Source of the DNA: Flavobacteriaceae bacterium
Lineage (GTDB): Bacteria > Bacteroidota > Bacteroidia > Flavobacteriales > Flavobacteriaceae
Assembly: GCA_028277085.1 (NCBI GenBank)
Contig: JANQHL010000034.1
Span: forward strand, 1 to 38,931
Direction: 5' to 3'
Length of the DNA: 38,931 nt
The position numbers and the translations under genes were made by a program. Below the pieces are notes generated by a model that made no database searches, was not told the origin of the DNA, and saw only the letters and a program-made list of their open reading frames with translations. Shown here one piece after another: positions 18,516 through 25,874 of the stretch (position 1 is the stretch's first letter; each line of letters opens with the position of its first letter).

Positions 18516-19277
18516 TTAACGAATTCCCTTGACAAATTCGGTGATAGTAGCGGTCCCATTTTGGGTAAGATGTTTAATAAAAGCCGAACCAATAATGGCA
18601 CCTTTTGCTTTAGCAGTTGCAGCTTGAAAAGTAGCAGCATTGCTAATGCCAAACCCAATGATCTGAGGGTTTTTTAGTTTGAGGGAAGCTATGCGATCAA
18701 AGTACCCCTGCTGAGCAGTGCCAAAACCACTTTTAGCGCCTGTTGTGCTTGCCGAGCTTACCATGTAAATAAACCCATCGCTAGCGTTGTCAATTTTCCG
18801 GATACGTGCATCACTGGTCTGTGGCGTAATCAGAAAGGTGTTCAAAAGGCCATATTTTTCAAAGATCACTTCGTATTCTTCCTGGTAGACATCAAAGGGT
18901 AGATCCGGTAGTATTAGGCCATCTATACCAATCTTCTGACATTTTTTACAAAACGCTTCTACGCCATATTGCAGTACCGGGTTAAAATACCCCATAATGA
19001 TCAACGGAAGGGTCACCTTCTCACGAATATCTTTTAATTGCTCAAAAAGAAGGGCTGTGGTCATGCCATTTTGTAATGCAGCCGTTGAGCTTTCTTGTAT
19101 GGTAGGGCCATCTGCCAACGGGTCACTAAAGGGCAATCCAATTTCAATCATATCCACTCCAGCATGCTCTAGCGCTTCAATGATCGGAACCGTGTCGTCC
19201 AGACTTGGATAACCTGCTGTAAAATAGATTGATAGCAGTTTATGGTCTTCCTGGAGTTTTTGTTTGATCCGATTCAT
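18516..19277 (-). CDS. trpA: tryptophan synthase alpha subunit
   Basis: TrpA splits indole-3-glycerol phosphate into indole and glyceraldehyde-3-phosphate. The 253 residues have the TIM-barrel motifs [27 protein letters not shown] (catalytic E45 and D56), and the later [12 protein letters not shown] and [11 protein letters not shown] phosphate-binding loops. The start overlaps trpB by four bases, so the two subunits should be made in equal amounts. Last biosynthetic gene of the operon. Confidence 0.97.
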
Positions 19278-20455
19278 AATTTGAAGTAATCAATATAGGT
19301 TTGCAAATCCTTATCGCCTCTTCCTGATAGGTTAACAACGACCACATTATCCTTTTCGAATTTCTTATAGTCAAATATGGCAAAGGCATGGCTGGTTTCG
19401 ATGGCGGGAATGATCCCTTCCATTTGTGAAAGCTCCAGCCCTGCAGTCATGGCTTCATCATCTGTGATCGATAAAAACTCTCCCCGACCACTTCTAAACA
19501 GATGTGCGTGCATAGGGCCAACCCCAGGATAATCCAGTCCGGCCGAGATAGAATAGGGTTCTGTAATCTGACCGTCCCCGGTCTGCATTAACAGGGTTTT
19601 ACTACCGTGAATAATACCTACTTTACCTAAAGCAGAAGTGGCGGCACTTTCCCCGGAATGGATTCCTTTACCTGCAGCTTCTACAGCTATGATGCCTACC
19701 TCCGGAGTATCTAAATAATGGTAATAAATACCAGCGGCGTTACTACCTCCGCCTACACAAGCCACCACATAATCCGGATTCTTCCGGCCCTCTTTTTCTT
19801 GTAACTGCGACTTTACCTCTTCCGAGATCACCGATTGAAATCGTGCAACCATATCCGGATAGGGATGCGGCCCTACCACCGAGCCTATAATGTAATGGGT
19901 ATTTACTGGATTGTTGATCCAATCCCGAATAGCTTCGTTGGTAGCATCTTTTAACGTACGGCTACCGGATTTTGCAGCACGGACCTCTGCACCTAACATT
20001 TTCATCCGGGCTACGTTGGGCGCCTGTCTCGCAATATCAATTTCACCCATGTACACGACACATTCAATACCCATTAATGCACAAACTGTGGCAGTAGCCA
20101 CTCCATGCTGACCGGCACCGGTTTCGGCAATGATCCGGTTTTTTCCCAGCTTTTTAGCCATCAAGATCTGACCTATGGTATTGTTTACCTTATGGGCCCC
20201 GGTATGGCAGAGGTCTTCCCGTTTCAGGTAGATTTTAGTATTGTACTTTTCGGATAGGCGTTCTGCAAAATAGAGTGGGGTAGGTCGTCCTACATAGTCT
20301 TTCAACAGTTGTTGAAATTCTTCCTGAAATGCGGGTTCCTCCATGATCCGGATATAATTCTGCCGCAATTCCTCGCAATTGGGATACAGCATTTCCGGAA
20401 TGTAAGCACCGCCAAATTCCCCGTAATAGCCTCTTTCATTAGCGTGATAACTCAT
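19274..20455 (-). CDS. trpB: tryptophan synthase beta subunit
   Basis: TrpB condenses indole with serine using pyridoxal phosphate. The 393 residues fit TrpB1. [11 protein letters not shown] carries the PLP lysine K89, [13 protein letters not shown] follows the active-site loop, and the phosphate-binding GGGSNAAG is present. The start lies 17 bases inside the end of trpF, a longer overlap than the four-base junctions elsewhere in this operon. It pairs with the adjacent trpA. Confidence 0.97.
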
Positions 20456-21119
20456 GTTCTAGCAATTTTTTGAACGTTTTTAGTTTTTCAATATTCTTTA
20501 GTCCAGGTTGCTCTTCGAACCTGCTGTTTATGTCTATGGCATAACAATATTCCGATTTTGGGCTACGCAAGAAGGCCGCTATCCCTGTTTGGTTTTCCAG
20601 GCCTATGCCACCACTTAAAAAATAAGGTTTGGTAGAGGGATATTCCTTTAGCACCTCCCAGTTAAAGGCGTAGCCATTTCCTCCAGGCAATTTCCCTTTG
20701 CTGTCAAAAAGGAAATAATCGCAAACAGTTTCGTAGGGGAGTAGCACGGAAAAATCAAACTCCTCCCGGATAGAAAACGCTTTGATGATCTCAATGCGAT
20801 CGTTTTTTAAGGGATGCTCCATTTTTCTGCTTTTACCGGAATTCCCCTGAAAACGATCTCGCAAGGCTTCACAATATTCCGGTGGTTCTTTGCCATGTAG
20901 CTGTACGGCGTCCAAATGATACGTTTGCACTTTCAGTAGTACCTCTTCAAGCCTTGCATCAACAAATACCCCTACCTTTTTGATATAGGGGGGTAGCGAA
21001 GGTAACTCGCCCGTAAAAACGCGGGGAGAAGGTTCCCAAAATATAAAACCAAGGTAGTCCGGTTGCAGCGCAGCCACTTCCTCGGGATTGTATTTCATGC
21101 CGCAGACCTTAAGTTTCAT
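20439..21119 (-). CDS. trpF: phosphoribosylanthranilate isomerase
   Basis: TrpF performs the Amadori rearrangement of phosphoribosylanthranilate to CdRP. The catalytic cysteine is C6 (LKVCGMKY) and the catalytic aspartate is D139 in [13 protein letters not shown]. The 226 residues exceed the usual length of about 200. The excess sits near 90-108 ([18 protein letters not shown]), a basic insert just before the strand carrying IIKAFS. The four-base overlaps with trpC upstream and the context leave no doubt of the role. Confidence 0.94.
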
Positions 21120-21901
21120 AGTTTTAACTTGGCAATAAACTCCGCTGCGCTTTTTGCAGGAGTATTGGTTTTCATAAAGTTTTCCCCAATCAAGAACCCT
21201 TGATATCCGAAGGTCTTGAGTTCATTAATAGCCTCTATGGAACTAATTCCACTTTCGGAAACCTTTACGAAACTTTCCGGGATTTCGTCCGCTAGCGTTT
21301 TACTGGTCTCCAGGCGTACTTCAAAGGTTTTTAAGTTTCTATTATTAACCCCCAACATGTCCAAACTGGGCATCAGGGATTTCTCCAATTCTTTTTGGTT
21401 ATGCACTTCCAGCAATACCTCCATCCCCAAACTTTTCGCCATTTCGGACAAATTTTTAATTTGCGATTGCGTCAACACGGTAGCTATAAGTAAGATGACA
21501 TCCGCACCATAAGCTTTGGCTTCCAGGACCTGATATTCGTCAATAATAAATTCTTTTCTAAGCAAAGGCATGGTCACCACCGATCGGGCCAATAGCAAAT
21601 CTTCCAGGGACCCACCAAAATATTTAATATCGGTAAGTACGCTCATTCCGGAAGCACCCGCTTTTTGATAGCCTTTGGCTACCTGGGCAACGTTGGTATT
21701 TTGATGAATGGTACCTTTGGAGGGAGACCGCCTTTTGTGTTCGGCAATAATTCCTGTAGTGCTGTTTTTTAAAGCGGTAGCTAAAGAAGCACATTCCCTG
21801 TTAAACAATACAGACTGCTCTAACTGAGCAGCTGGAATTACCGCTTTTTTTAAGGCTACTTCCACCTTTTTATCAGCAATTATGTGATCAAGGATATTCA
21901 T
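21116..21901 (-). CDS. trpC: indole-3-glycerol phosphate synthase
   Basis: TrpC closes the indole ring from CdRP. The 261 residues show IIAEHKRRSPSKG near 51-63 (catalytic E54 and K56), SVLTDIKYFGGS, LLRKEFIIDEYQV, and the late VSESGI and GFLIGENFMK phosphate loops. Here TrpC and TrpF are separate proteins, not fused as in E. coli. Both ends overlap their neighbours by four bases (ATGA-type junctions). Confidence 0.97.
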   Translation of the reverse strand: MNILDHIIADKKVEVALKKAVIPAAQLEQSVLFNRECASLATALKNSTTGIIAEHKRRSPSKGTIHQNTNVAQVAKGYQKAGASGMSVLTDIKYFGGSLEDLLLARSVVTMPLLRKEFIIDEYQVLEAKAYGADVILLIATVLTQSQIKNLSEMAKSLGMEVLLEVHNQKELEKSLMPSLDMLGVNNRNLKTFEVRLETSKTLADEIPESFVKVSESGISSIEAINELKTFGYQGFLIGENFMKTNTPAKSAAEFIAKLKL

Positions 21902-22893
21902 GCCGCACTCAATTGCTGTAATTTTTTCAATGCTTTTAATCCTTCTCCGTTCAGTAAGGACTCCTGGGCCTTTTCAAAACCGGCTTTTGGAGTGATTCCG
22001 TTTACTGTTGCGATGGCCATTCCGGCATTGGCACAAACCACGTTGTTTTGAGCAGTTGTGCCTTTCCCTTGTAAAATATTGAGAAAGATTTGAGCAGATT
22101 CCGCAATATCTTCCCCACCAACAATGGCTTCGGGGGAAATCTGATCTACGCCAAAATCTGCAGGATTTAGCATCCCTTCGGATCCATTGGAAATGGTTTT
22201 GGTAGCTCCGGTAAGGCTTATTTCGTCATAGCCGTCCAAAGCGTGGATCACGGTAAAATTTTTGCTCGTATTCTGGTATAGGTAGCCGTACATACGTGCC
22301 AGTTCCAAATTAAACACTCCTACCATTTGATTGGTGGGAAAGGCCGGGTTAACCATAGGCCCCAACATATTAAAAAAGGTCTTTACCGCAAGCTCCTTGC
22401 GTATAGGGGCCACATTTTTCATAGCCGGATGGAAAAGTGGGGCATGCAATACGCAAATTCCGCATTCCTCGATGGATCTCTCCAAAAAATCGGGATTGTT
22501 ACTGAATTTAATCCCTAAGAACTCCATAACATTGCTACTGCCACATTTTGATGATACCCCATAGTTCCCATGTTTGGTAACCTTTATTCCCGCACCAGCC
22601 GTAACAAAGGAGGCTAAGGTAGAAATGTTGAAAGTGTCCTTACCATCTCCGCCAGTACCACAAAGATCAATAGGGTTATAGCTACTTAAATCCACCGCCA
22701 GGCAAAGCTCCAATAAAGCGTCCCGGAAGCCCTCCAATTCCTCAATTGTGATGCTCCGCATCATATACACGGTAAGAAATGCCGCTATCTGACTGGTATT
22801 GTATTCTCCCTTCGCAATGTTGATCAGGATCTGCTTGGCATCTTCCTTGGAAAGGATTTCGTGATTGATAAGCCTGTTTAATGTTTCTTTCAT
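21898..22893 (-). CDS. trpD: anthranilate phosphoribosyltransferase
   Basis: TrpD transfers phosphoribose from PRPP to anthranilate. The 331 residues carry the diagnostic DLCGTGGDGKDTFNIST at 77-92 and KHGNYGVSSKCGSSNVMEFLG. The later HALDGYDEISLTGAT completes the active site. It is a stand-alone TrpD with no glutaminase fused to it. It is separated from trpG by a 311-base spacer with repeats, the only large gap inside this operon. Confidence 0.97.
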   Translation of the reverse strand: MKETLNRLINHEILSKEDAKQILINIAKGEYNTSQIAAFLTVYMMRSITIEELEGFRDALLELCLAVDLSSYNPIDLCGTGGDGKDTFNISTLASFVTAGAGIKVTKHGNYGVSSKCGSSNVMEFLGIKFSNNPDFLERSIEECGICVLHAPLFHPAMKNVAPIRKELAVKTFFNMLGPMVNPAFPTNQMVGVFNLELARMYGYLYQNTSKNFTVIHALDGYDEISLTGATKTISNGSEGMLNPADFGVDQISPEAIVGGEDIAESAQIFLNILQGKGTTAQNNVVCANAGMAIATVNGITPKAGFEKAQESLLNGEGLKALKKLQQLSAA

Positions 22894-23204
22894 TCTTTAT
22901 TTTTTGTCATACCTAAGGTCACTAAGCAAAACCGAGGTGTGAAGGGAATCTATTTTCTTGTGTTCTTTTTTGCTCGTCCAAAAAAGAACCTAAAAAGGAC
23001 GTCTTTTCAGAGGAATTTTTTCTGCAAACAGAAAAACCGATTCGAAAACTTCGCGTCGTTACACTCCTGTCTTTCGAAGCTTTTCTCATCTATTCTGCTG
23101 AAAAGCGAATTCCACTCACACTTTCTTTCTACACTGTACTTGCTTTTTATACTCTTAATACATTTTAATTCTATTTTTCTGCGCTCCTATTTCATTGGTT
23201 AAGT
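22894..23204. repeat. 311-base spacer inside the trp operon with hairpins, repeat-element-like
   Basis: No credible gene. It contains a perfect 11-bp inverted repeat (22962-22972 with 22979-22989, arms GTTCTTTTTTG and CAAAAAAGAAC, 6-base loop) and a second 8-bp one (23017-23024 with 23029-23036, arms TTTTTCTG and CAGAAAAA, loop CAAA). Further complementary pieces such as TTCGAA and CTTTCGAAG follow. The composition is unlike the neighbouring genes. From memory, similar AAAAAAGAAC-type elements are scattered between genes in flavobacterial genomes; copy number here cannot be tested. Confidence 0.6.
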
Positions 23205-23771
23205 CTAGGACTTGTTGAGCCAGTTTTCCAGTATTTTTTTTCCATAAGGGGTTAATATGGACTCGGGGTGAAACTGCACTCCTCGTACATCGTACGTTTT
23301 ATGTTTCAAAGACATGAGCTGTTGGCTGCTGTCATAGGAGGTAGCTTCCAGTACTTCCGGTAAGTTATCGTCGACAACCCAGGAATGATAGCGGCCTACT
23401 TCGATCTCTTCAGGAATACCGTCAAAAATGTAATCCTGTCCTGTAATGTGAACCGTGGTGGCAATTCCGTGATATACCTCATCGAGGTTGATCAAAGTAC
23501 CTCCATATACCTCACCAATAGCTTGTACCCCAAGACACACACCAAAAATGCGTTTTGTGGGACCATAGGTGTCAACAATGGCCTTCAGGAGTCCGGCTTC
23601 TTCTGGAATTCCTGGGCCCGGAGATAAGACAATGTATTCAAAAGGCGCTACTTCCTCAAGGGTAAGTTGATCATTTCGTTTTACAATTACTTCGCAACCC
23701 AGTTCTTCCAGGTAGTGCACCAGGTTGTAGGTGAAACTGTCGTAATTGTCTATCATCAATACCTTTTTCAT
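23205..23771 (-). CDS. trpG: anthranilate synthase glutaminase subunit
   Basis: TrpG supplies ammonia from glutamine to TrpE. The 188 residues are a class I glutamine amidotransferase with the triad C79 (FGVCLGVQAIGE), H169 and E171 (VQFHPESI), plus the oxyanion loop LSPGPGIPEEAG. In many bacteria lacking a separate pabA the same subunit also serves folate synthesis, which cannot be judged here. Two bases separate it from the trpE stop. Confidence 0.95.
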   Translation of the reverse strand: MKKVLMIDNYDSFTYNLVHYLEELGCEVIVKRNDQLTLEEVAPFEYIVLSPGPGIPEEAGLLKAIVDTYGPTKRIFGVCLGVQAIGEVYGGTLINLDEVYHGIATTVHITGQDYIFDGIPEEIEVGRYHSWVVDDNLPEVLEATSYDSSQQLMSLKHKTYDVRGVQFHPESILTPYGKKILENWLNKS

Positions 23772-23773
23772 AG

Positions 23774-25171
23774 CTAGATCGTTTCGGCAATTTCAAGGGC
23801 GTTATTTAGAGCCCCAAGTTTATTGTAAGTTTCCTGTAATTCGGTTTCGGGATCAGATGCTGCCACTAAGCCGGCCCCAGCCTGAAAATGAAGCGTATGG
23901 TTTTCGCTTAAAAAAGTACGGATCATAATGGCATGGTTAAAATTTCCCTTGAAATCCATAAATCCTATGGCACCACCATAGTAGCCCCTATTTGTTGTCT
24001 CGTATTTTTCAATAAGCTGCATTGCCCGATGTTTAGGAGCACCACTTAGAGTACCTGCTGGAAAGGTATCTGCCACAATTTTTAAGGTGGAGGTATCGGG
24101 TTTTTTAATTCCGGTTACTTTAGATACCAGGTGGATAACATGGGAAAAGTACTGCACTTCTCTATAGGTTTCCACATTTACGGCATTGCCATTTCTGCTC
24201 AGATCGTTTCGGGCCAAATCCACCAGCATTACGTGTTCGCTATTTTCTTTGTCATCTGCGGCTAATGCTTTGGCCAATTCAGCATCTTTTTCATCGTTTC
24301 CCGTTCGCTTATAGGTGCCGGCTATGGGATGTATTTCGGCCTTACCCTCCTTTACAACCAATTGGGCCTCCGGAGAACTTCCGAATATTTTAAAGTTGCC
24401 ATAGTCAAAGAAGAACAAGTAAGGCGAAGGGTTTATAGATCGCAACGCCCGGTAGACATTAAACTCATCGCCTTTAAAATTCTGGGAAAACCTTCTCGAC
24501 AGTACCAGTTGAAAAACATCACCTCTATGGCAATGTTTCTTGGCAAACTTTACTTGTTCGCGATAATCTGCATCTTCCAGGTTTGAGGATAACTCTCCTT
24601 CACGATTAAAGGTATAGGTGGCAAAATTGCGCACATTTAGGAGTTGAGCAATTGTCTCTATATTGTCTTTGCCATCTAGGGAATGGCAAAAAATATACGC
24701 TTCATTCTTAAAATGGTTGATCGCAATTATGTTTTGATACACCGCGTAGAAAACATCAGGAATAGCCACGGAGTTTTCCTTCTTCTCAATGGCTATGGCT
24801 TCAAAATAACGTACGGCATCATACGCCATATAACCGAACAGCCCGTTGGTCGCAAACTTAAAATTGAGTTCCTGCGCCTCAAAAGTCCTTGCAAATTCAT
24901 CCAAAACAGCGGGCAGATCGGTGTCGGCTGTGATCTTTTCCCGGGTTTGTTTTCCATCAGGATAAGAGGTCAGGATTTCCTCATTTTCAACTTTGATAGA
25001 AGCCAGCGCATTGCAACAGATGTAAGAGAAGCTATTATCATTGGCATGATAGTCACTACTTTCCAATAAAATACTATTTGGAAATCGATCCCGAATCTTC
25101 AAGTACACGCTTACCGGGGTAATGGTGTCGGCAAGGATTTGTTTGTAATTGGTTTTAAGCTTGAATTTCAT
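23774..25171 (-). CDS. trpE: anthranilate synthase component I
   Basis: TrpE converts chorismate to anthranilate and is the feedback-controlled first step. I took the ATG at 25171 (465 residues, MKFKLKTNYKQILAD); an earlier start would run back into the attenuator terminator. The LLESSDYH segment near 34 resembles the tryptophan-binding LLES motif. The chorismate-binding domain has FQLVLSRRFSQNF, IAGTYKRTGNDEKD, EHVMLVDLARNDLSR, TLSGAPKHRAMQLIE and the final YGGAIGFM. First gene of the trp operon, preceded by the leader peptide. Confidence 0.96.
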   Translation of the reverse strand: MKFKLKTNYKQILADTITPVSVYLKIRDRFPNSILLESSDYHANDNSFSYICCNALASIKVENEEILTSYPDGKQTREKITADTDLPAVLDEFARTFEAQELNFKFATNGLFGYMAYDAVRYFEAIAIEKKENSVAIPDVFYAVYQNIIAINHFKNEAYIFCHSLDGKDNIETIAQLLNVRNFATYTFNREGELSSNLEDADYREQVKFAKKHCHRGDVFQLVLSRRFSQNFKGDEFNVYRALRSINPSPYLFFFDYGNFKIFGSSPEAQLVVKEGKAEIHPIAGTYKRTGNDEKDAELAKALAADDKENSEHVMLVDLARNDLSRNGNAVNVETYREVQYFSHVIHLVSKVTGIKKPDTSTLKIVADTFPAGTLSGAPKHRAMQLIEKYETTNRGYYGGAIGFMDFKGNFNHAIMIRTFLSENHTLHFQAGAGLVAASDPETELQETYNKLGALNNALEIAETI

Positions 25172-25182
25172 TTCAAATGGAT

Positions 25183-25216
25183 TCAAAAAATTAAGGCTTG
25201 TCGTGATGACAAGCCT
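25183..25216 (-). terminator. trp attenuator (intrinsic terminator before trpE)
   Basis: On the minus strand a 9-bp perfect stem, AGGCTTGTC (25208-25216 on the window) with GACAAGCCT (25194-25202), loop ATCAC, is followed by TAATTTTTT. This is a strong intrinsic terminator lying 11 bases before the trpE start codon and 32 bases after the leader-peptide stop. Its position between leader peptide and first structural gene is that of a transcription attenuator. Confidence 0.85.
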
Positions 25217-25248
25217 CAAATATTGTTATAGCAGGGACTAGCTCACGA

Positions 25249-25296
25249 TCATTGACGCAAGTTTTTCCACCACCAGTTGTTATTCATTCCTTTCAT
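25249..25296 (-). CDS. trpL: trp leader peptide (three consecutive Trp codons)
   Basis: A 15-codon frame on the minus strand encodes MKGMNNNWWWKNLRQ; an internal ATG at 25287 would give MNNNWWWKNLRQ. Three adjacent TGG codons in so short a frame, directly ahead of trpE and an intrinsic terminator, make this a regulatory leader peptide. When charged tRNA-Trp is scarce, the ribosome should stall on the TGG run and favour read-through into trpE. Just past the stop, TCGTGA (RNA sense) can pair with TCACGA in the terminator loop and descending arm, a short candidate antiterminator. Confidence 0.85.
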   Translation of the reverse strand: MKGMNNNWWWKNLRQ

Positions 25297-25301
25297 TGGT
25301 G

Positions 25302-25331
25302 TAAATATAAAAATGAATTTGAAATTGACAA
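25302..25331 (-). promoter_or_regulatory. candidate trp operon promoter
   Basis: On the minus strand, TTG (25329-25331) and TATATTTA (25302-25309) are separated by 19 bases, the Bacteroidota -33/-7 layout with one mismatch in the last position of TAnnTTTG. The start of transcription would fall close to the leader-peptide start codon, so the leader mRNA has almost no 5' untranslated sequence if the first ATG is used. Confidence 0.6.
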
Positions 25332-25367
25332 ATGAAAAATCCAATATCAGTCTTAAGAATAAAAAAA

Positions 25368-25383
25368 GCAACCGTTTAGTTGC
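25368..25383. promoter_or_regulatory. operator site 1 for the ArsR-type regulator
   Basis: GCAACCGTTTAGTTGC is an inverted repeat with 5-bp arms GCAAC/GTTGC. It covers the -33 TTG of the promoter ahead of the SRPBCC-arsR pair. A near-identical site lies 41 bases further on, about four helical turns, so both face the same side of the DNA. Confidence 0.65.
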
Positions 25384-25409
25384 ATAAATAAAAAAGAATC
25401 GTATTTTAG
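25380..25409 (+). promoter_or_regulatory. promoter of the SRPBCC-arsR pair
   Basis: TTG (25380-25382) and TATTTTAG (25402-25409) are 19 bases apart, matching the Bacteroidota TTG-N19-TAnnTTTG form with one mismatch. The -33 lies inside operator site 1 and the -7 abuts operator site 2, so a bound regulator would block RNA polymerase. Confidence 0.6.
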
Positions 25410-25424
25410 CAACCAATTAGTTGC
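25409..25424. promoter_or_regulatory. operator site 2 for the ArsR-type regulator
   Basis: GCAACCAATTAGTTGC is an inverted repeat with one mismatched pair, sharing arms and core pattern with the site at 25368. It begins at the last base of the -7 element and would cover the transcription start. Confidence 0.65.
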
Positions 25425-25448
25425 GTATTAATCTTAAAACGAACAGTT

Positions 25449-25874
25449 ATGAAAGACGTTATTTTAAAAGAACAAATTTTCAATCATTCGATTGATAAAG
25501 TGTGGAAGGCAATTTCCAATGAAGCGGAAATCTCCTCCTGGTTTATTAAGGCAGATTTTAAAGCAGAGAAAGGATACCGTTACACCTTTTTCTCTGAAGG
25601 TGAAAATTGTACTCAAATTACCGGAGAGGTAAAAGAAGCAAACCCCTATACGTTGATTTACACCTGGGTAGTGCAAAACACAGATACCATTACAACGGTG
25701 AAATGGTCTTTGGAAGAGGTAGGGGGGAAGACAAAACTGTATTTGGAACATTCCGGAATATCTGGTTACGAAGGGGATACTGCCGTTAACATGTTTAACA
25801 GCTTTGATGGCGGTTGGGACAATTGTGTGACTGAGCTTACTAAATTCTTAAACGCTGAAGTCCATGCAGGATAG
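25449..25874 (+). CDS. SRPBCC (AHSA1-like) domain protein
   Basis: The 141-residue product is an AHSA1/START-type SRPBCC protein. It starts MKDVILKEQIFNHSIDKVWKAISN, continues with EISSWFIKADFKAEKGYRY and TYTWVVQNTDTITTVKWSLEE, and ends in a C-terminal helix with DGGWDNCVTELTKFL. The fold holds a hydrophobic ligand; none is known for this subfamily. It overlaps the following ArsR-type regulator by 11 bases. This SRPBCC plus ArsR pairing is widespread, and the two operators upstream suggest autoregulation. Confidence 0.85.
   Translation: MKDVILKEQIFNHSIDKVWKAISNEAEISSWFIKADFKAEKGYRYTFFSEGENCTQITGEVKEANPYTLIYTWVVQNTDTITTVKWSLEEVGGKTKLYLEHSGISGYEGDTAVNMFNSFDGGWDNCVTELTKFLNAEVHAG

Follow-up and report, generated by a model that had tools for sequence, protein, structure and literature searches.

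A conserved leader ahead of trpE in Flavobacteriaceae is probably a ribosome-mediated attenuator of the Bacteroid-trp family

The trp operon of the Flavobacteriaceae bacterium in assembly GCA_028277085.1 is preceded by a leader that, judged from comparison with relatives and from folding models, is very probably a ribosome-mediated trp attenuator homologous to the Bacteroid-trp RNA (RF01692). A sequence-only reading of the window, the whole stretch of 38,931 nucleotides analysed here (contig JANQHL010000034.1), had proposed a Trp leader peptide and an attenuator ahead of trpE. Class-wide conservation and the covariation of both the antiterminator and the protector hairpin now back this proposal. 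We observed the parts of such an attenuator, their conservation, the covariation of the two pairings and the equilibrium folding of nascent segments into the alternative states. The same reading suspected a mode of switching different from that of Escherichia coli. This suspicion is not upheld, since the leader has a 1:2 state as well as an antiterminator and a terminator state.

Results

Organization of the trp leader region

The features of the locus are collected in Table 1. A complete operon with the gene order trpEGDCFBA follows directly after the terminator. Its trpE product scored 429.8 bits against TIGR00564, under the cut-off of 517.7 bits, and its best named match was 97% identical and came from a metagenome-assembled genome labelled Croceivirga sp. 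(L234); identities in the 80 best named loci ranged from 74 to 97%. The upstream neighbour gene (25449-25874, plus strand) is divergently oriented. The terminator is thus not that gene's, and like the promoter it belongs to the trp operon. We considered whether the terminator is shared elsewhere in the own genome and rejected this, because the terminator pattern and the combined motif and terminator pattern occurred in one copy each.

Table 1. Features of the trp leader and operon in the window
Feature	Position	Strand	Details	Basis
Putative Bacteroidota housekeeping promoter	25302..25331	-	TTG 25331-25329, 19-nt spacer, TATATTTA 25309-25302	sequence
Leader ORF MKGMNNNWWWKNLRQ	25249..25296	-	stop TGA 25251-25249	sequence
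Three Trp codons, predicted sensor	25267..25275	-		sequence, family comparison
Region 1 inner strand, CUUGCG	25256..25261	-	with the Trp codons, pairs to region 2 (1:2 protector)	MFE, permutation
Region 2 core, UCGUGA	25243..25248	-	directly after leader stop	family comparison
Region 2 continuation	25229..25240	-		MFE, pairing search
Intrinsic terminator hairpin	25191..25219	-		sequence, MFE
Terminator T tract	25185..25190	-		sequence
trpE, first gene of operon	23774..25171	-	ATG at 25171; TIGR00564 429.8 bits	
trpG, trpD, trpC, trpF, trpB, trpA, rest of operon	18516..23771	-		profile and ORF data

The sequence between the leader stop and the terminator hairpin is UCGUGAGCUAGUCCCUGCUA. The terminator has a 9-bp core, formed by AGGCUUGUC (25216-25208) and GACAAGCCU (25202-25194) around the loop AUCAC (25207-25203), and the minimum free energy (MFE) structure lengthens this stem to 12 bp (25219-25191). 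The MFE of the segment 25298-25183 was -33.5 kcal/mol, compared with -21.4 +/- 3.4 for shuffled sequences (z -3.6). The region 2 core has two alternative partners, either region 1 or the loop and 3' arm of the terminator. Thus, a short ORF with regulatory codons and an intrinsic terminator lie before the first structural gene, and comparison and prediction add a 1:2 protector hairpin that a ribosome on the Trp codons could disrupt, which are the features expected of an attenuator.

Promoter and start of the leader

The promoter box TATATTTA is one base off TAnnTTTG and lies 5 nt from the leader ATG at 25296. With TTG and a 19-nt spacer in place, the putative promoter is of the Bacteroidota type, as the sequence-only reading had it. 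In the family, 137 of 149 Flavobacteriaceae leaders have TAnnTTTG no more than 45 nt before their ATG, and in 117 of these 137 a TTG precedes the box by 19-20 nt. The gap between box and ATG in the 137 leaders was 4-8 nt in 49, 9-12 nt in 21, 14-22 nt in 65 and 30 nt in 2. The count runs to the ATG nearest the Trp run, in the window its second one. The nearest ATG lies 8 codons before the first Trp codon (Trp1) in 123 of the 143 leaders with an ATG; the remaining 6 of the 149 lack an in-frame ATG shortly before the run. For the window leader we favour a start at the first ATG (25296), given this usual distance and the close relative L235, which lacks a second ATG in its leader.

The leader peptide had also been described as nearly leaderless. 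The 5-nt spacing between box and ATG makes such a start plausible for the window, but the feature is not conserved, and a leaderless leader as a family-wide trait was rejected on the varying gaps given above. In Flavobacterium psychrophilum, 5.5% of the mRNAs whose start was mapped are leaderless (PMC9723704), and Shine-Dalgarno sequences are described there as absent in the group.

Conservation of leader and terminator

Of 199 Flavobacteriaceae genomes, 189 yielded a trpE, and the 400 nt upstream of 150 of these genes, the window included and the weakest-scoring left out, were compared. Within 400 nt of trpE, 149 of the 150 loci have a terminator and a short frame that contains a Trp run, WWW in 147 leaders and WW in 2. 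In the single exception (L214), the leader lies further upstream behind a 382-nt insert, and counting such distant placements all 150 loci carry a leader before trpE. The same holds for all 80 named relatives: leader and terminator are within 400 nt in 73, and about 490-580 nt upstream in the other 7. Relatives without the TGG run or the terminator had been named as what would speak against the attenuator; we looked for them, and the survey did not overturn it.

An insert of 380-470 nt separates the attenuator terminator from trpE in L238, L240, L244, L251, L259, L266, L301 and L214. By eye, its ends are inverted repeats resembling ATTTCCGCGAAGGCGGAAAT. It encodes a short GIY-YIG protein, of 94 amino acids in 5 of the 7 named loci; the longest insert frames in L251 and L301 have 31 and 71 amino acids, respectively, and the protein from the L214 insert matched PF01541 with 63.3 bits. 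Judged by its sequence, the insert resembles a mobile element of the small, palindromic kind.

A further 60 loci of the class comprised 57 from other families and three divergent members of the same family (L172, L173, and L213), with L184 and L204 coming from one genome; left out were the matches G382 and G465, whose trpE lies close to the end of a contig, and some of the matches from the same family. Leader and terminator were within 400 nt in 53 of the 60, and four more loci have them 1.35-1.40 kb upstream (57 of 60), whereas no qualifying leader was detected in L175, L190 (truncated contig) or L205, the last of which has a one-Trp ORF by eye. In family f43, Trp-Arg-Trp replaces WWW before trpE in 5 of 7 leaders (L179, L180, L182, L184, and L186). 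The far-upstream leaders belong to L198/L216, L199/L217, L206/L219 and L207/L220, where presumably another gene is first in the operon; these four loci carry the motifs UCGUAAG or UCGUGAG opposite terminator loops such as CUUGCGG and CUUACGA.

More distant members of the phylum were sampled with 13 of 26 matches, and 10 of the 13 have a Trp-rich leader before trpE; the other three (L221, L223, and L232) showed doubtful W pairs only and were not used. The leaders in L222, L224-L231 and L233 precede genes for TrpE proteins about 40% identical, and some contain four Trp codons (WWWW in L222, WLWWW in L225). This distribution suggests that attenuation before trpE is usual in the families sampled.

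The antiterminator and its covariation across families

The region 2 motif UCGUGA is exact in 141 of the 149 Flavobacteriaceae leaders, with one mismatch in 7 and two in 1. It starts 27 nt (108 leaders), 28 nt (37), 26 nt (3) or 23 nt (1) after the first Trp codon, while its offset from the leader stop is -3 in 87, -8 in 34, +6 in 16 and otherwise in 12 leaders. Its spacing from Trp1 is thus fixed while the reading frame differs or the motif is unread, implying conservation as RNA. Among the 73 named relatives with a close leader, UCGUGA is found at 27-28 nt in 65, and eight have another base at its first position.

The candidate antiterminator, pairing UCGUGA (25248-25243) with UCACGA (25206-25201), is placed as the sequence-only reading had it, and 145 of 149 leaders have the motif at 27-28 nt from Trp1. 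Its core pairs are kept in 144-149 of the 149, and sequence comparison ranks the 6-bp pairing with the best conserved RNA features in Flavobacteriaceae leaders. A length of only 6 bp, however, was an underestimate: UAGUCC (25240-25235), in the region 2 continuation, is complementary to GG-c-UUG of the terminator 5' arm, and as UAG-u-CC it can add pairs there. The duplex spans 5' arm, loop and 3' arm in 148 of the 149 leaders. We rejected this span as a class-wide hallmark, as it was seen in 0.58 of 67 other leaders versus 0.51 of mismatched cross-family pairs. A loop-only pseudoknot with an intact terminator is disfavoured, since the 3' arm contributes its first two bases to a U-A and a C-G core pair, which 145 and 149 of 149 leaders, respectively, retain. 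These two core pairs rarely vary in Flavobacteriaceae, which is conservation and not covariation; a paired double change was found in L072, where UCGUAAG stands opposite CUUACGA.

Covariation was assessed across families. Leaders were picked by Trp codons, frame and terminator alone, antiterminator pairing not being a criterion, and in each permutation one leader per family was paired with its own or with other families' terminators. The region 2:terminator duplex averaged -14.87 with the own terminator versus -11.37 (sd 0.71) with foreign ones, a difference reached in 0 of 20,000 permutations (54 leaders, 21 families). In an enlarged set with 13 more leaders, nine of them from distant phylum members, the values were -15.14 versus -11.01 (sd 0.58), again with 0 of 20,000 (67 leaders, 28 families). 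No permutation of 20,000 was as good when Flavobacteriaceae were removed (63 leaders, 27 families), or when the spacer was shortened to about 40 nt and stopped 6 nt or more short of the terminator. L231 (family f19), in which the terminator was mis-called and the spacer held the apparent true 5' arm, was left out of the final permutations and is still among the 67 leaders in the counts of core pairs and duplex geometry. The cross-family permutations leave base composition shared by spacer and terminator uncorrected; a shuffled-spacer control, which corrects for it and covers region 2:terminator only, gave p < 0.05 in 30 of 54 leaders and p >= 0.05 in 24, with a combined p of 3.6e-10 over 21 families.

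Region 2 sequences are mostly unrelated between families while the pairing is kept, as in CGCUGUGA-C-UCAGC with GCUGA-UCACAGC(G) in L157, GUGAACGGC with GCUGUUCAC in L204, and ACAGUAGG with CCUACUGU in L211. Individual leaders vary: the duplex of the window itself (-12.3) was matched by 15 of 50, or 17 of 63, other-family terminators, and in L172, L179 and L212 the own terminator was no better than foreign partners. Taken with the folding described below, comparison indicates an antiterminator able to exclude the terminator.

The protector hairpin

The 1:2 pairing, which had been described as not obviously strong, is strong in the MFE structure of the window. It joins CUUGCG (25261-25256) with CGUGAG (25247-25242), and the Trp codon segment UGGUGG-u-GGA (25275-25266) with the complementary UCCCUGCUA (25237-25229). 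Region 1 consists of the later Trp codons and the strand that follows them directly. With region 2 placed from the terminator alone, region 1:region 2 pairing averaged -7.96 for own versus -5.75 (sd 0.50) for foreign partners, reached in 1 of 20,000 permutations (54 leaders, 21 families). An outer helix, in which the codons as far as the Trp run pair with the end of the spacer, covaries as well, at -10.98 versus -7.73 (sd 0.51; 0 of 20,000; 28 families). Within Flavobacteriaceae, with the kinship of leaders ignored, the outer helix gave -9.2 versus -7.7 (0 of 5,000). In the window it is short and weak (-6.0). This hairpin enclosing the Trp codons, present in the window MFE and covarying across families, corresponds to the structure drawn in the Rfam model.

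Predicted switching during transcription

Nascent segments were folded under an assumed ribosome footprint, for which 12 nt counted from the first base of the A-site codon onward were masked. For the window with a ribosome on the third Trp codon (Trp3), the predicted probability of the antiterminator was 1.0 with 3 nt of the 3' arm out and 0.78 with 6 nt out, whereas the terminator is predicted to form once the ribosome has reached the stop, and also when there is no ribosome. With a ribosome on Trp1 or Trp2, pairing of region 1 with the 5' arm leads instead of the consensus antiterminator. Over the 149 leaders, sequestration of the nascent terminator by upstream sequence was 0.63 when stalled on Trp3, 0.10 at the stop and 0.34 with shuffled spacers; the corresponding values for 53 other leaders were 0.61, 0.18 and 0.37, and all 21 family means agree in direction. 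Exceptions were sequestration above 0.3 with the ribosome at the stop (6 of 149 and 12 of 53 leaders), sequestration not higher when stalled (1 of 53), and sequestration not above the shuffled mean (3 of 53). At equilibrium the finished terminator outcompetes all other structures in every ribosome state, and the switch must thus be kinetic, decided during transcription.

Relation to RF01692

A cmscan search of 24900-25600 placed RF01692 Bacteroid-trp first (model positions 1-131, 31.1 bits, E 0.18 for 701 bases). With 31.1 bits, under the curated 49-bit cut-off, the window is a homologue below cut-off and not a formal Rfam match. Relatives match in graded scores (L235 45.5, L245 49.8, L237 52.1, and L236 57.1 bits), and the window is therefore regarded as a divergent homologue; its weak outer helix may account for the low score. 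All 20 sampled Flavobacteriaceae loci matched at E up to 1, 13 of them over cut-off. Of the named close relatives, 20 were scanned at E up to 3; 18 matched, 16 over cut-off. L234, which has the same leader as the window, and L239 gave no match at E up to 3. Weak matches are unspecific: with E up to 10 allowed, half of the control genomes (7 of 14) gave one, and in one genome it was over cut-off. A second match in the own genome (C217, E 3.5) was dropped, as no Trp run was present in the 140 nt examined.

The window and RF01692 share a Trp-codon leader ORF, the position before trp biosynthesis genes in Bacteroidota and the layout of the leader. They differ in that the Rfam model consists of one long hairpin ending inside the terminator 5' arm, with the terminator and antiterminator pairings absent from it.

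Discussion

We propose that RNA polymerase would start at or a few nucleotides from the leader AUG, with a ribosome following. Given enough Trp-tRNA, the ribosome would move beyond the Trp codons as far as the stop at 25251 and would then cover region 2 or have left it behind; the terminator (25219-25191) would form and transcription would end before trpE. At low Trp-tRNA, a ribosome stalled on UGGUGGUGG would break the 1:2 hairpin and free region 2, which could then pair with the nascent terminator (5' arm, loop and first bases of the 3' arm) and allow read-through into trpEGDCFBA. Without translation, the 1:2 hairpin would be expected to keep region 2, and the terminator would win. We infer the transcription start site, the translation of the ORF, its coupling to transcription, the efficiency of termination and the response to tryptophan from the arrangement of these parts.

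Could the terminator act unswitched, as a roadblock or a setter of basal expression behind a Trp-rich ORF without control? Its superior stability at equilibrium in all ribosome states would fit; yet in-frame Trp runs occur in all 149 leaders, region 2 keeps a constant distance from Trp1, and the helices excluding or releasing the terminator covary over 21-28 families, so that we consider such an inert terminator very unlikely. Even less probable appears sensing by something other than a stalled ribosome, such as a tryptophan riboswitch, a T-box or a TRAP-like protein, with the ORF being secondary. The strong RNA-level conservation of UCGUGA and the terminator within Flavobacteriaceae is what such a sensor might leave behind, but the cmscan search of 24900-25600, which listed Bacteroid-trp first and reached E values of 10, contained neither a T-box nor a riboswitch, and region 2 sequences that are wholly different between families while the pairing is kept are unlike a ligand pocket or protein site.

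A further possibility adds to attenuation instead of replacing it: the terminated leader RNA or the peptide might have a second, trans-acting role in Flavobacteriaceae, explaining why the terminator is near-invariant there. The 9-bp arms AGGCUUGUC and GACAAGCCU are identical in 108 of 149 leaders, though spacer and peptide vary, and the loop mostly ends in UCAC; rnTrpL and peTrpL of Sinorhizobium meliloti provide a precedent (PMC7298713). However, many terminator bases have two alternative partners, and this dual pairing may itself explain the slow change; outside Flavobacteriaceae, moreover, terminator sequences are mostly unrelated. We therefore regard the trans-acting role as unlikely, and ribosome-mediated attenuation remains our preferred reading of the leader.

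According to sequence comparison and folding, the switching logic follows that of the E. coli trp attenuator (RF00513) in unrelated sequence: both have Trp codons in a short ORF, and 1:2, antiterminator and terminator alternatives among which the position of the ribosome decides. In E. coli, the antiterminator pairs with the terminator 5' arm alone, whereas the predicted antiterminator of the family described here takes the 5' arm, the loop and the start of the 3' arm. The window further differs in its three adjacent Trp codons and its Bacteroidota promoter, and cmscan of 24900-25600 gave no match to Trp_leader RF00513. The trpL transcript of S. meliloti is leaderless, starting at the leader ATG, with a trans-acting RNA and peptide reported (PMC7298713). 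The promoter spacing of the window may point to a start at the leader ATG as well; S. meliloti is, unlike our organism, an alphaproteobacterium.

The element itself is already known, having been catalogued as RF01692 since 2010 and named in print for F. psychrophilum. Table 1 of Weinberg 2010 lists Bacteroid-trp for Bacteroidetes with 'y' for both RNA and cis-regulation, and the main text does not mention 'tryptophan', 'leader peptide' or 'attenuation' (PMC2864571). Bacteroid-Trp was noted upstream of the F. psychrophilum trp operon (PMC6414381), and clues for leader-peptide attenuation upstream of amino acid operons were reported in that species (PMC9723704); the passages concerned give no antiterminator structure for trp. 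Among the matches listed in the open-licence literature, none studied trp attenuation in Bacteroidota experimentally or described an antiterminator for it.

The present comparison provides a switching structure for Bacteroid-trp, with an antiterminator covarying over 28 families and a protector covarying over 21-28. The Rfam cut-off misses copies such as that of the window. The mechanism is classical and would not surprise a specialist; the value of the present analysis lies in the mechanistic completion of a known family, for which the switching structure makes the mechanism directly testable.
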